64,000 nt of DNA from Serratia proteamaculans (GTDB taxonomy: Bacteria > Pseudomonadota > Gammaproteobacteria > Enterobacterales > Enterobacteriaceae), in assembly GCF_013337185.1 (NCBI RefSeq), contig NZ_SWDE01000001.1, positions 372,001 to 436,000 on the forward strand, written 5' to 3'. The notes beneath the pieces were generated by a model. That model saw nothing but the letters and a program-made list of their open reading frames with translations. It had not been told where the DNA came from and ran no database searches. Of this stretch, positions 29,837 to 34,919 are shown one piece after another. How positions within the stretch are numbered: position 1 is the first letter of the stretch; each line of letters opens with the position of its first letter. The translations under genes were made by a program, and so were the position numbers.

Positions 29837-30460
29837 AGTTAATGACTTCCCAGAGGAATTGAAAAATACTGTTTGACCCACTTTAAGCCGTAGGGAATGG
29901 CTTAAATGATCAAAAACCATACAGACTTTTGTTTGATTCCTCCCCTTACCGCCGCGTTTTCTCTCAGTTTGCTGATATTTAATGTGTTTTATCTTATTTG
30001 TTTCTGAGGTAAGGGCATTTCACGGGCTGTGCCCCGACCCTAACATCGCCTAAACCAAGGTGAAATTTTATGATTTTTTACGATTTCACTTTTAATTTCA
30101 CATTAACAACCCGTGTATTGGCCCTAATGTTATTTTTTTTCACATGCCAGCGTGCAACTTTAGCGCTACTCTGACCAGGCTGTGTCTAATTAAGGAAGAT
30201 GCCATGTGGAATATGCAAACTAACATAGGGATATGTTATGAATTCCTCTGTTGCCCCATTGAGTTTCATTTCCTTGAGATTCTTTCCCAAAGCACGCCTT
30301 TTTCATGACTCTGCGATAATACTAATGGCTTAAGGATTAATGGGTCTTTAATTATCAGGATGACAATAATAATATCACGTCGTGATTATTATTTAATTAT
30401 TCTTTTTCCCGACCAGATAAATCTCTCTGCCAGCCTATTTATTCACTCAGGAGTACACTA
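29837..30460. other. AT-rich intergenic region before the lysine hydroxylase gene
   Basis: About 620 bp without a gene I can support. It is clearly richer in A and T than the coding DNA to its left, with runs such as TTATTTTTTTTCACATG. Near its right end is an AT-rich dyad around ATCACGTCGTGAT (30364-30393). Possible remains of lost genes were sought and not recognised. Confidence 0.5.
30359..30377 (+). promoter_or_regulatory. weak Fur-box-like site and adjoining dyad upstream of the hydroxylase
   Basis: GATGACAATAATAATATCA matches 11 of 19 Fur consensus positions. It overlaps the dyad ATCACG-T-CGTGAT (30374-30386) flanked by AATAAT and ATTATT. Iron control would make sense for a hydroxamate gene, but the match is modest. 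Confidence 0.35.
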
Positions 30461-31738
30461 ATGAACCCGTGTTTGGACTTTATCGGTATTGGCATCGGTC
30501 CGTCCAACCTCAGTATTGCTGCGCTTGGCAGCGAAATCGAAGGTTTTAATTGCAAATTCCTCGAGCGCAAACCGCAGTTTTCCTGGCATCCAGGTATGAT
30601 CCTGGCGGAATGCAGTATGCAGACCAGCTTTTTGAAGGATTTGGTGACAGCCGTCTCGCCAACCAACCCTTATAGTTTCCTTAACTATCTGGTGAAAAGG
30701 AAAAAATTCTATCGTTTCCTGACAACGGAACAACGCGCGGTGTCTCGTGAAGAGTTTGCCGATTACCTCAACTGGGCTGCCACGGGGCTGGATTCGCTGG
30801 TTTTCAACCAGGACGTTCAGCGCGTGGAGTTTGATAACCAACGGCGGCAGTATGTTGTTACCACCCAGAATGAGGTGTTTTACGCTAAACACGTCTGCGT
30901 GGGCATTGGCAAGAAAGTCAAACTGCCGGACTGCGTGACCGAACAAAATGATCGGTGTTTTCACGCCAGCGAAATGATGTTTCGCCAGCCAAACCTTGGC
31001 GGAAAACGCGTGGCGATTGTGGGCGGCGGTCAAAGTGGTGCCGATCTGTTCCTTAACATTTTTCAGGGCGAGTGGGGCCAACCGGAGCAACTGAGTTGGA
31101 TCTCCCGACGTAACAACTACAACGCTCTTGATGAAGCGGCATTTGCCAACGAGTATTTTACGCCCGATTATGTCGACGACTTCTATACGTTCAGCAATAC
31201 GGCCAAACAGCAGATGCTGCGCGAACAAAAAATGACCTCCGATGGCATCACCAGCGAGTCTCTTTTGGCTATTTATCGCGCCATGTATCACCGCTTCGAT
31301 GTTCTGCAAGAGAAACGCTGGGTACGCCTGTTACCCAGCCGCTCCGTGACGGCTCTTAATAGCCAGGATAATTTTTATCGGTTGGAGACGCAGCACCATC
31401 TTGATCAGGGGCGCGAGACCCTGGATGCCGATGTGGTTATCTTTGCTACCGGCTATGAACAGGCTCAACCGACTTTTCTTGCCTCCCTGGCGGACCGGGT
31501 GTTAACCGACGCCGATGGGCAATATCGTATTGCCGCTGATTTTACCCTTGAGCGCGAGGCGGGGCATGAGAATGCTCTGTTTGCCGTCAATGCCAGCATG
31601 CACCACCACGGTATTGCCGATCCTCAGCTCAGTCTGGTGGCCTGGCGATCGGCCCGCATCCTCAATCGGGTACTGGGCGAGAATAAATTTGATCTGAGTA
31701 CCGCCCCGGCGATGATTCAATGGCGCAGTGAGCAATAA
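30461..31738 (+). CDS. iucD: L-lysine N6-monooxygenase (IucD-like)
   Basis: 425 residues, the length of E. coli IucD, with which it shares long stretches by memory (FSWHPGM, FLKDLV, TNPYSF, EQKMTSDGIT, SARILNRV, IQWRS). FAD binding is by GIGIGPSNLSIA near residue 10, NADPH binding by VGGGQSGADLF near 190, and DVVIFATGYE is the conserved late motif. It hydroxylates the side-chain amine of lysine, the first step to a hydroxamate iron ligand. iucA, iucB and iucC are absent; instead an ATP-grasp gene follows by 78 bp and a siderophore receptor gene converges. Confidence 0.92.
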   Translation: MNPCLDFIGIGIGPSNLSIAALGSEIEGFNCKFLERKPQFSWHPGMILAECSMQTSFLKDLVTAVSPTNPYSFLNYLVKRKKFYRFLTTEQRAVSREEFADYLNWAATGLDSLVFNQDVQRVEFDNQRRQYVVTTQNEVFYAKHVCVGIGKKVKLPDCVTEQNDRCFHASEMMFRQPNLGGKRVAIVGGGQSGADLFLNIFQGEWGQPEQLSWISRRNNYNALDEAAFANEYFTPDYVDDFYTFSNTAKQQMLREQKMTSDGITSESLLAIYRAMYHRFDVLQEKRWVRLLPSRSVTALNSQDNFYRLETQHHLDQGRETLDADVVIFATGYEQAQPTFLASLADRVLTDADGQYRIAADFTLEREAGHENALFAVNASMHHHGIADPQLSLVAWRSARILNRVLGENKFDLSTAPAMIQWRSEQ

Positions 31739-31816
31739 CAGCCAATAGCAATAAACCTCCTTTGGTTCCTTGCAGGAGCCGTTTTAATACTTTGTTCAAG
31801 TTATGAGACAGGTTGT

Positions 31817-32695
31817 ATGAAAAAGAATATTAATAAATTTATCATGAACCAATTGGCTACATTCACACCGACTTTTAAAACAAAATTAATATATAAAAAA
31901 GCGTTCGGGAAAAGATTAAATCTTAACCCGCCAGTGACCTGGAACGAAAAAATAAACTATCTGAAACTTAACGGATACAGCAACAATACGCTGGTTACGC
32001 AATGTGCCGATAAATACGCAGTCAGAGAGTATTTGAAAGCGAAAGGCTGCGAAGAAATTCTCAATGAGCTTTACTTCGTTTGCGATTCAGTCGATGAGAT
32101 CCCTTGGGGGTCTTTGCCCGATAAGTTTGTGATTAAGGGCAATCATGGTTCAGGTTACAACCTGATTTGCCAGGACAAGAAATCACTGGACGTTACCAAA
32201 GCCGCTAAAACCATTGATAACTGGATGAAAGAGGACTACTGGAAGGTCTATGCAGAGCTGAACTATAAGCAAATCAATAAAAAGATAATAGGTGAGAAAT
32301 TTATAGAGTCAGCCAGTGGCCATGGCCCTGATGATTATAAAATATACTGTTTCCATGGCGTACCTTACTGCACGCTACTTTGTGTTGGCAGAGAAACCGG
32401 CACGCCGAAATATTACTTCTTTGATAAAGACTTCAAGTTTCTTTGCTACAGCCAGGATTGTTTGGCTCTTAGCCAGCAGGAGATAGATGCTTTCGTTAAA
32501 CCCGAGGGCTATGACGATCTCTTCGAGTACGCCAGAAAATTATCTGCACCCTTTGAGTTTGTCCGTGTCGATTTCTATATTGCCAACGGCAAACCCATTT
32601 TCGGCGAGCTAACCTTTACCCCTTCCGCAGGCATTGATACGGACATGCTCGAATCAACCGATATTTTGCTCGGGAAGATGCTAAAGCTGAAATAA
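31817..32695 (+). CDS. TupA-like ATP-grasp protein
   Basis: 292 residues. KGNHGSGYNLIC is the ATP-binding loop, DDYKIYCFHGVP and FGELTFTPSAG are the conserved motifs of the TupA-type ATP-grasp group. Known relatives are found in cell-wall polymer and polysaccharide gene sets and are thought to join an amino acid to an acid through an acyl-phosphate. Here there are no polysaccharide genes; the partner is a lysine N-hydroxylase just upstream in the same direction. It may couple hydroxylysine to a carboxylate. The gene is visibly AT-richer than its neighbours (AAA, AAT and ATA codons abound), suggesting transfer. Confidence 0.78.
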   Translation: MKKNINKFIMNQLATFTPTFKTKLIYKKAFGKRLNLNPPVTWNEKINYLKLNGYSNNTLVTQCADKYAVREYLKAKGCEEILNELYFVCDSVDEIPWGSLPDKFVIKGNHGSGYNLICQDKKSLDVTKAAKTIDNWMKEDYWKVYAELNYKQINKKIIGEKFIESASGHGPDDYKIYCFHGVPYCTLLCVGRETGTPKYYFFDKDFKFLCYSQDCLALSQQEIDAFVKPEGYDDLFEYARKLSAPFEFVRVDFYIANGKPIFGELTFTPSAGIDTDMLESTDILLGKMLKLK

Positions 32696-32706
32696 CAGTA
32701 AATAAT

Positions 32707-32735
32707 CCCCGGGTAGGGTGCAGTGGTACCCGGGG
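32707..32735. terminator. bidirectional terminator between ATP-grasp and receptor genes
   Basis: CCCCGGGTA pairs with TACCCGGGG over an 11-base loop, with CTTTC to the right and ATTATTTACTGTTATTT on the minus strand to the left. It lies between two convergent stops. Confidence 0.75.
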
Positions 32736-32742
32736 CTTTCAA

Positions 32743-34875
32743 TCAAAAATCTACCGTAGCCTGCAGGCTTAGGCTACGCGGTTCTCCCTCAATCACCCGC
32801 AGGTTGCCTGCGCTGGACGCATAGTACTCGCGGTTGAACAGGTTTTTGACGTTCAGTTTAATTTGAGTGTGTTTGCCGACCAGCTTGCTGTCCCAGGCGA
32901 TAAACGCATCTGCCACGGTGTAAGCCGGCATGGTAAAGCTGTTTTCCGGATCGCCGGCACGGCGACCAACATAACGACCCCCACCGCCAAGACGTACATC
33001 ACCAGGAACTATCGGCAGCGTTATACGATGACTCAGGTACAGGCTGCCCATGTTGGTAGGGGCGTTTACCAGCCGGTTGCCGACGTTATCCGGGTTGAGG
33101 TTGTCTTCCACAATTTCGGTTTTGTCGTAGCTGTAATTGGCGGTCAGATCCCAGTTGCGGGCGACTTCGCCGTTCAGCTCCAGTTCAACACCGGTCGATC
33201 TTGCCTTGGGAATACTGCGAGTCACACCGTTGATAAAGATCGACATATTGTTTTCATCAATGCGATACAGCGCCAATGTGGCATCCAACGCCGGATTTAC
33301 CTGCCATTTGCCACCCACTTCATAGGTGGTGCCGGTTTCTGGTGTGGCGACGTTGCCATTGTCATCCACCGCCGTTGATGGGGTGAAGGATCGGCTGTAG
33401 TTGGCATATAAAGAAACGGCCGGCGTCAGTTTATACACCACACCCGCCTGCGGCAGGAATTTGTTATCTTTGTCGTTCAGCGTGTTTTGTGGGTTCTGGA
33501 AGCCGTTACTGTTGTTCTGATAGTAAGACTGGTAGCGAGCGCCCAACACCGCTATCCACTGGTCAGTCAAATGAATGCTGTCTTTGACATAGGCCGAGCG
33601 GCTGTACAAGGTAGTACGCAAATTACTCAGGGCATCATTGTAGGTGCTGCTGTTGGTTACCGGGGTTTCGCCATACACCGGGTCATACATATTGAAGGTT
33701 TGTGAGACCTTGCCGCGATAGGAATAGGCCTTATAGGTTTCATTTTTCTCATAGTCGACGCCAATCAACAGGTCATGTTGCATGCCCAGTGCAACCGGTG
33801 AACCATTCAGATCCCAGGAGTAATAGTTGGTCTGATGGTTGAAGCCGCGGTTGGCGTCCGCACGGCGTGAAACGATGCCGGTGGTAGTGTTGACTGCGGT
33901 GGCACGCACTTCATTACTGTCGTAGCGGCGTTGCATCCAGGCATAGCTAAAGCGGGTGGTCCAGGTGCTGTCCAGCGCATACTCATAGTGCGTGTTCAGA
34001 CGTTTGTTCTTGCCCCAGGCGTGGTTGGCGTAGTCATCCAGCCTGCGGTTATAGGGGATATCGACCGGTTTGCCATTGATAAAGGCGGTACCCCGGTCAT
34101 AAGGGATATCGTACTTGTATTCGCTGTAGGAGATGTTAAAGGCAGCCTTGTCGCCAAACCAACTGAGCGAGGGGGCGATCAGCGTATGTTCGTCGGTGCC
34201 GAAATTGCGCCAGTAATCCTGGTGTTGGCGTTCGGCAATAAAGCGGAAAGCAAAGCCGTTCCCCAATGGCCCGGTGACATCAACGGAACCACTGCCGCCA
34301 CCAAAGCTGTTGGTGGCACCGCTGATACGGGTATTCCAGTCGTACTGTGGCTTTTTGCCGATCAGATTGATGATGCCGCCGGGGCTGAGAATGCCATACA
34401 GCAGTGAAGCCGAGCCTTTGAGAACCTCCACACGATCGGTGGTGGCATCCATGCTCAATCCCTGATTGCTGCGGATGCCATCGATAAATACCGAACCATC
34501 CGAGTTGACGCCAAAGCCGCGTTTGACGAAGCCATCTTCGGTGCCGCCAAGGGTATTACCCTGAGTCACGCCGCTGACGAATTTCATGGCGTCGTTGACG
34601 CTTTTGACTTGAAAGTCGTTGATCACCTCGGGGGTGACCACACTAACGGACTGGGGCACCTCGTTGAGCGGGGTGTTGGTTTTGCTGCCGGTTGAAGCGG
34701 TATCTGTGCTGTAACCCTCGGCAGGTAAGGCGTTGGCGGTCACGGTGAGTGAATCCTCCTCGGCCAGCGCGGCGGTGGTTGTCAGCGCCGGCAAGACGCT
34801 AACGAGGAAGGGAAGCGAACGAAGAGCCTGATGTTTTTTTGTTTTTTTCAGACGATGATTTTCTACCTGGCACAT
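32743..34875 (-). CDS. TonB-dependent siderophore receptor
   Basis: About 710 residues from the ATG giving MCQVENHRLKK (an in-frame TTG 15 bases upstream is possible). A signal peptide ends at TTAALA, and the TonB box region is close to DSLTVTAN. The plug domain shows NEVPQSVSVVTPEVI and RVEVLKGSASLLYGILSPGGIINLI, and the barrel ends in VDF with terminal Phe. It resembles the FhuE/FoxA hydroxamate group. It faces the hydroxylase/ATP-grasp pair and has the best Fur box in the window, so it is probably the uptake route for whatever that pair makes, or for a foreign hydroxamate. Confidence 0.92.
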   Translation of the reverse strand: MCQVENHRLKKTKKHQALRSLPFLVSVLPALTTTAALAEEDSLTVTANALPAEGYSTDTASTGSKTNTPLNEVPQSVSVVTPEVINDFQVKSVNDAMKFVSGVTQGNTLGGTEDGFVKRGFGVNSDGSVFIDGIRSNQGLSMDATTDRVEVLKGSASLLYGILSPGGIINLIGKKPQYDWNTRISGATNSFGGGSGSVDVTGPLGNGFAFRFIAERQHQDYWRNFGTDEHTLIAPSLSWFGDKAAFNISYSEYKYDIPYDRGTAFINGKPVDIPYNRRLDDYANHAWGKNKRLNTHYEYALDSTWTTRFSYAWMQRRYDSNEVRATAVNTTTGIVSRRADANRGFNHQTNYYSWDLNGSPVALGMQHDLLIGVDYEKNETYKAYSYRGKVSQTFNMYDPVYGETPVTNSSTYNDALSNLRTTLYSRSAYVKDSIHLTDQWIAVLGARYQSYYQNNSNGFQNPQNTLNDKDNKFLPQAGVVYKLTPAVSLYANYSRSFTPSTAVDDNGNVATPETGTTYEVGGKWQVNPALDATLALYRIDENNMSIFINGVTRSIPKARSTGVELELNGEVARNWDLTANYSYDKTEIVEDNLNPDNVGNRLVNAPTNMGSLYLSHRITLPIVPGDVRLGGGGRYVGRRAGDPENSFTMPAYTVADAFIAWDSKLVGKHTQIKLNVKNLFNREYYASSAGNLRVIEGEPRSLSLQATVDF

Positions 34876-34900
34876 AGTATTCCATATCAAATTAATAAAT

Positions 34901-34919
34901 AATAACGATTATCATTTTT
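34901..34919 (-). promoter_or_regulatory. Fur box upstream of the siderophore receptor
   Basis: On the minus strand AAAAATGATAATCGTTATT matches 15 of 19 positions of the Fur consensus. It lies 26 bp before the receptor's ATG, in the gap shared with the divergent GGDEF gene. Confidence 0.8.

Follow-up and report, generated by a model that had tools for sequence, protein, structure and literature searches.

What might a lysine N6-hydroxylase be making when its lasting partner is an ATP-grasp ligase of the TupA type? The question is posed by a pair of genes in a 64,000-nucleotide stretch of Serratia proteamaculans DNA (contig NZ_SWDE01000001.1 of assembly GCF_013337185.1, positions 372,001 to 436,000 of the forward strand), the whole of which is referred to here as the window. 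A preliminary description of the locus proposed that the pair, faced by a convergent siderophore receptor, might constitute a two-enzyme route to a small hydroxamate; the open reading frames (ORFs) and Pfam domains bear out this gene arrangement. The pair is a genuine conserved two-gene module that persists without aerobactin genes, and we propose, at a probability of roughly 0.4, that it acts as a stand-alone two-enzyme system amidating N6-hydroxylysine, the product of which is probably a hydroxamate. ORF tables were greedy longest-ORF lists with some spurious rows, and functions not covered by a Pfam scan were assigned by eye. The two genes, separated by an intergenic gap of 78 bases, are as follows:

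30461..31738, forward strand: predicted lysine N6-hydroxylase, an IucD paralogue of 425 aa (ORF and PF13434); first gene of the pair
31817..32695, forward strand: predicted TupA-type ATP-grasp amidoligase of 292 aa (ORF and PF14305); second gene of the pair

Conservation of the Gene Pair in Serratia

Conservation was assessed in 30 Serratia genomes. An orthologue of the ATP-grasp protein (threshold at least 77%) occurs in 24, the pair hydroxylase is found in the same 24, and both are absent from the remaining six. The genes are adjacent, in the same order and on the same strand, in 23 of the 24 carriers and intact in 22; G019 (L038) shows stops or frame shifts in both genes, reflecting either decay or sequencing error, and in G007 the pair is split over two contigs, the ATP-grasp gene beginning 17 bases into its contig. 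The conserved adjacency by which the preliminary description proposed to check its idea is thus borne out. Among the non-carriers, G002 and G003 possess the hydroxylase only as an iucA/iucC-adjacent copy (distinguished as the aerobactin type by that position) and a distant one, and G025 to G028, with genomes of 1.5–3.6 Mb, have no hydroxylase.

The pair stays together while its surroundings change between clades. The window pair shares 97–98% protein identity with that of S. quinivorans (L010), which places the source genome within Serratia near S. quinivorans, and its site is common to S. quinivorans, S. proteamaculans, S. grimesii, and Serratia sp. PL17. S. inhibens and S. plymuthica have the pair at a distance of a few genes from this site, and the marcescens type uses a third, with a tRNA-Phe gene in three of the nine marcescens-type stretches scanned. 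The marcescens-type loci also contain, some 2.4 kb downstream and beyond GNAT and LuxR-type genes, what by eye looks like a transporter gene; the pair has no exporter as a constant neighbour. The GNAT gene (L017, 10345–10755) was considered as the missing acyltransferase and rejected, being an ordinary short GNAT at some 1.3 kb from the pair that was not encountered in the other clade.

The distribution of aerobactin genes follows a different pattern. IucA/IucC domains were detected in 15 of the 30 genomes, including 13 of the 24 carriers, and the sole such match in G014 belongs to a staphyloferrin-B-like island adjoining the pair. Strong IucB-type matches (E about 1e-51) were confined to 14 genomes, namely 12 carriers together with G002 and G003, all other IucB-family matches being weak (E 3e-6 or worse). 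Twelve carriers consequently have no strong IucB match, 11 of which also lack any IucA/IucC match, and in nine of the 12 marcescens-type carriers the hydroxylase query hits nothing besides the pair hydroxylase. The pair is thus independent of the aerobactin genes.

Aerobactin and Other Hydroxylases in the Source Genome

Three full-length PF13434 genes and a weak fourth match are present in the source genome, the former residing in the window, on C2, and on C15. C2 carries an operon of iucA-iucB-iucC-iucD (L025, 6046–14082) and behind it, in the place of iutA, a receptor-like gene assigned without a domain scan. Consistent with the preliminary description, which had recorded no iucA, iucB, or iucC at the locus, the IucA/IucC matches of this genome are found on C2 only, with none in the window, and its one strong IucB (PF13523) match lies in the same operon. 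As judged from the gene content, the aerobactin synthesis genes are complete without the pair. With regard to the alternative raised earlier, that the missing genes lie elsewhere on the chromosome, the full iucABCD set does exist on C2, but this operon has its own iucD and requires no hydroxylase from the pair, which is hence not the missing hydroxylase of aerobactin. The source genome accordingly does not present the case, named beforehand as one that would speak against a two-enzyme route, of an aerobactin cluster complete except for the hydroxylase, and 11 carriers have neither IucA/IucC nor strong IucB.

Could the first gene be simply a spare iucD that tops up N6-hydroxylysine for aerobactin, its ATP-grasp neighbour being unrelated? 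Its product shares 75% identity with the aerobactin IucD of its own genome, and aerobactin genes accompany it in 12 of the 24 carriers. The pair is nevertheless kept in the 12 carriers without strong IucB and is missing from the aerobactin carriers G002 and G003, and this explanation is already disfavoured and, in our estimation, highly improbable. A broader possibility is that the hydroxylase feeds a different hydroxamate pathway whose genes lie elsewhere, whether built on a nonribosomal peptide synthetase (NRPS) or on another NRPS-independent siderophore (NIS) synthetase, with the ATP-grasp gene as a bystander or tailoring gene. Serratia genomes do carry further siderophore genes, of which aerobactin on C2 is an example, and the G014 island adjoins the pair in one of the 12 marcescens-type genomes; the aerobactin operon is, however, already supplied with iucD, the 11 carriers without an IucA/IucC match do not harbour the G014 island, and linkage in 23 of 24 genomes would not be expected of a bystander. 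We consider such a pathway decidedly unlikely.

The G014 island itself (L060, 1459–10093) comprises an NIS synthetase, a PALP enzyme, an HpcH/HpaI aldolase, and a receptor (by eye), and its location next to the pair in a single genome of the S. marcescens type points to a variable hot spot. On C15 (L026, 9827–11961), a second orphan hydroxylase (PF13434) precedes a phosphopantetheinyl-transferase-like gene (PF01648), the genes around them being dnaA/dnaN/recF- and mnmE-like (by eye) and neither NRPS nor NIS genes having been noted in this stretch; hydroxylases resembling this one (47–50%) occur in 14 of the 30 Serratia genomes.

The Hydroxylase

The hydroxylase matches PF13434 (Lys_Orn_oxgnase) with an E value of 2.3e-111 and a score of 372.6 bits against a cut-off of 21.3, and is 49% identical to the C15 copy. 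In a tree of 30 rows, seven pair hydroxylases constitute a single clade (support 100/99), nested in a 22-row enterobacterial IucD group (93/100) that takes in Serratia and Yersinia as well as Cronobacter-, Pantoea-, and Xenorhabdus-type rows, the inner order of which is not resolved by the tree. On this phylogenetic evidence, the pair hydroxylase is an IucD paralogue.

With regard to the substrate, K59 and N230 (in the motifs FLKDLVT and FAN..F.P..VDDFY) are common to the hydroxylase, MbtG, and KtzI, and are missing from 7us3 (labelled putrescine), 6xbb (unspecific label), and 5o8p (labelled lysine). We take these two residues to have a part in substrate choice, and 6xbb and 5o8p are presumably diamine enzymes. 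The residues of the pair hydroxylase would therefore agree with a substrate of the amino acid rather than the diamine type, although the label of 5o8p speaks against a clean rule. No hydroxylase homologue with both Pfam domains fused was present among the matches listed (120 of 719, the 7997 best candidates having been scored).

The ATP-Grasp Ligase

The ligase scores above the cut-off for PF14305 (ATPgrasp_TupA; E 5.4e-42), and its structure model (predicted local distance difference test score 94.7) adopts an ATP-grasp fold which matches the carboxylate-amine ligases Ddl, ArgX, LysX, and BacD, as well as RimK; a sequence search of the PDB with the ligase returned nothing better than E 0.069. 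K107, E160, D252, and E264, to which ATP- and Mg-related roles are assigned by analogy, are invariant across 51 sequences. The modelled protein thus looks like a competent carboxylate-amine ligase, and the family has a tested member: according to the available part of PMC11800379, the C-terminal TupA-like domain of Campylobacter Cj1438 forms an amide from the carboxylate of glucuronate and an amine phosphate. The suggestion in the preliminary description that the ATP-grasp protein is the amide former accordingly gains support from the model, the residues, and the family. The Serratia clade is marked by G108, G159, C89, and F206, the usual residues in relatives being C, C, Y or W, and W, respectively; all four are shared by three homologues at 66–70% identity. 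The two glycines, mostly cysteine in relatives, adjoin the invariant K107 and E160.

The G+C content of the ligase gene is 41% vs. 52% for that of the hydroxylase, a hint of foreign origin as far as composition can tell. In four comparisons against the window, the ratio of nonsynonymous to synonymous substitution rates (dN/dS) was 0.063–0.088 for the hydroxylase and 0.024–0.056 for the ligase, the values being rough, with a ligase dS above 1 in three of the four and a fifth comparison saturated for the ligase. Both genes are, by these estimates, under strong purifying selection.

The resemblance to Ddl and to the dipeptide ligase BacD also bears on an alternative that dispenses with a second substrate. 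The ligase could activate the carboxylate of N6-hydroxylysine itself, giving either the cyclic 3-amino-1-hydroxyazepan-2-one, i.e., the cobactin ring of mycobactins, or a dimer. Precedents are provided by the last step of D-cycloserine formation, an ATP-grasp ring closure, and by the cobactin lactam contained in mycobactins; no extra gene would be needed, which suits a lone pair. There is, on the other hand, no sequence sign of self-activation, and the tested TupA-like domain, as described in the accessible portion of its report, uses an external carboxylate. This self-condensation appears very unlikely.

Relatives of the Ligase and Surface Glycans

Relatives were sought outside Serratia at the levels of order, phylum, and family (394, 398, and 392 genomes; cut-offs 1e-50, 1e-35, and 1e-60), and those retrieved showed at most 53% identity; closer homologues in the protein database reached 54–58% (Bacteroidales, Bacillota), with P0007–P0009 at 66–70%. 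In the stretches examined around the relatives at 53% or less, no pair-type hydroxylase was located, the linkage being known here from Serratia only. Nineteen TupA contexts were counted (L022, L023, L024, L027, L028, L065, L067–L076, L085, L087, and L088), L053–L058 and L077–L083 having been left out for their short flanks, and none of the 19 contained a pair-type hydroxylase within the stretch examined. A flippase adjoins the TupA gene in nine (seven by Pfam, two by annotation) and four more lie among glycosyltransferases (by annotation, L088 by eye), while no glycan call was possible in six (L024, L069, L071, L075, L076, and L085). L087, the closest enterobacterial relative examined (53%), is accompanied in its stretch by genes for a UDP-sugar dehydrogenase and an epimerase, neighbours that are consistent with a uronate substrate.

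These contexts invite a reading in which the TupA enzyme joins N6-hydroxylysine, or its alpha-amine, to the uronic acid carboxylate of a conserved surface glycan, thereby placing a hydroxylamine or hydroxamate on the envelope in lieu of a secreted siderophore. The flippase and glycosyltransferase neighbours, the sugar enzymes near L087, and the glucuronate carboxylate reportedly used by the tested family member, in the part of that source available, all speak in its favour. It must be set against this that, of the Serratia neighbourhoods read, none is a glycan locus and none provides the pair with a flippase or glycosyltransferase partner, and we regard such glycan decoration as unlikely.

At L027, 8718–10902, and L028, 9628–11934, the source genome has two additional TupA genes, each adjoining a flippase for oligosaccharides. 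This combination of two genes resembles a recurrent module, with further instances in Pantoea and Bacteroidales.

Proposed Function

In the preferred reading, that of a module amidating N6-hydroxylysine, the flavin-dependent hydroxylase would first convert L-lysine into N6-hydroxylysine, as its close kinship with IucD suggests. The TupA-type ATP-grasp enzyme would then activate a carboxylate with ATP, and N6-hydroxylysine would attack it, in the simplest case by way of its hydroxylamine nitrogen, to yield a lysine hydroxamate; this second step is suggested by the fold, the conserved catalytic-type residues, and the tested family member. The product may have a minor role in the chelation of iron or other metals. 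A more far-reaching version, in which a glycan-derived TupA amidoligase forms the N-hydroxy-amide directly, independently of NRPS and NIS enzymes, in a route conserved in most of Serratia that also explains an as yet elusive chelator, is put forward tentatively and as rather doubtful.

Control Signals and the Neighbouring Receptor

What, then, ties the pair to iron? The remaining features of the locus relevant to its control and uptake partner are the following:

30449..30453, forward strand: AGGAG resembling a ribosome-binding site, shortly 5' of the hydroxylase start (read from the sequence)
31763..31781, forward strand: terminator-like hairpin with a T-rich tail between the pair genes (weak evidence)
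32743..34890, reverse strand: TonB-dependent receptor of the FoxA/FhuA type, 715 aa (ORF and Pfam), probably outside the unit
34901..34919, reverse strand: Fur-like site 5' of the receptor, 15 of 19 consensus bases

The receptor (PF00593/PF07715) faces the pair convergently from the opposite strand, an ATG at 34875 being a likelier start than the ORF end at 34890, and is similar to the hydroxamate receptors FoxA and FhuA. Fur-like sites were scanned for with a crude 19-base consensus, against a null of first-order Markov resampling. The receptor site, in line with the Fur-boxed receptor of the preliminary description, is equalled in a fraction of 0.008 of 500 such resamplings, and the site upstream of iucA agrees at 14/19 (0.052). 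Within 300 bases 5' of the hydroxylase at 12 loci, by comparison, the best agreement was 12/19, within the null range, and in none of the 12 was a Fur-like site found. No inverted repeat of at least 10 bases within 30 bases was found 5' of the hydroxylase that could mark an operator. The sequence there diverges between clades; GGAG is invariant across the 12 upstream regions aligned.

The hairpin in the gap has a predicted folding energy of -11.7 kcal/mol (z -1.33), and 21 of 200 shuffles fold equally well; terminator-like sites number 11 in the window vs. 6.2 expected. A similar hairpin is found in L014 and L016 and none in L020. Attenuation is possibly its function.

Several of these results weigh against a classical siderophore operon. 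The receptor, counted at 85% identity or more and without regard to other receptors, adjoins the pair in only four of the 24 carriers, lies within 10 kb in five, and occurs anywhere in 12, which rules it out as a constant partner. The missing Fur-like site 5' of the pair speaks against a classical iron-regulated siderophore, and suits glycan decoration of the envelope; taken together with the inconstant receptor, it leaves an iron-scavenging siderophore product unproven. The hairpin between the two genes, moreover, means that their co-transcription is not assured. Of the idea set out in the preliminary description, the conserved unit independent of aerobactin genes is thus supported; the receptor link and iron control of the pair are not.

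On one side the locus is bordered by a sugar ABC transporter and amylase-family set, and on the other by a diguanylate cyclase. The longest complete ORF in the window encodes 822 aa and none is of NRPS size, the list covering complete ORFs by length and not NRPS domains; PADLOC gave no match for a defence system.

Relation to Known Systems and Implications

How does the pair compare with established routes? A lysine N6-hydroxylase of the IucD type also opens the aerobactin pathway (iucABCD-iutA; schIJKL in S. plymuthica), and the source genome contains both this pathway and the pair, but the window pair is without a neighbouring IucB acetyltransferase, NIS synthetase, or IutA, and the scan revealed no Fur-like site 5' of it. 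Mycobactin-type hydroxamates use N6-hydroxylysine and need NRPS modules or acyl transferases; the pair hydroxylase is a sequence relative of MbtG, whereas no NRPS module or acyl transferase was seen beside the pair, where genes were read without a search for NRPS domains. With the TupA-like amidoligases, the ligase shares the Pfam family, the catalytic-type residues, the ATP-grasp fold, and a predicted ATP-dependent amide bond; it differs in that glycosyltransferases or flippases accompany the tested member and most of the relatives with a readable context, whereas the Serratia clade is tied to an N-hydroxylase. We know of no ATP-grasp natural-product ligase (such as BacD or DcsG) that is coupled to an amine hydroxylase or makes siderophore hydroxamates.

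No description of the pair was found in the open-access literature searched, subscription papers falling mostly outside that scope. In the available part of the published cluster table of S. quinivorans NFX21, an aerobactin-type NI-siderophore cluster is named and a pair of this kind is not, and the accessible portions of ATP-grasp/Serratia or amidoligase papers (PMC12193951, PMC9964261, PMC12096838) and of the aerobactin text of PMC13074693 and PMC6884506 are not concerned with it.

S. plymuthica V4, from what is available of PMC7962358, makes serratiochelins, photobactin, enterobactin, and aerobactin, the last requiring schI (iucA). A V4 schE mutant with no catechols and little aerobactin grew well under bipyridyl, and in the same portion of that study an undetected chelator was not excluded by the authors. 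The pair is present in S. plymuthica NBRC 102599 (L015), a strain other than V4, and by analogy these data would leave room for a product of the pair. Were the proposal true, the “other iron chelators” left open for S. plymuthica in the available part of PMC7962358 would gain a named locus in the pair.

Given that rule-based cluster finders seek NRPS or NIS synthetases, they would be expected to miss such a pair. If the ligase does acylate N6-hydroxylysine, ATP-grasp enzymes would join the short list of hydroxamate-making routes, in a version requiring just two genes, and a metabolite would be at hand for those S. marcescens-type species which possess the pair without aerobactin genes.

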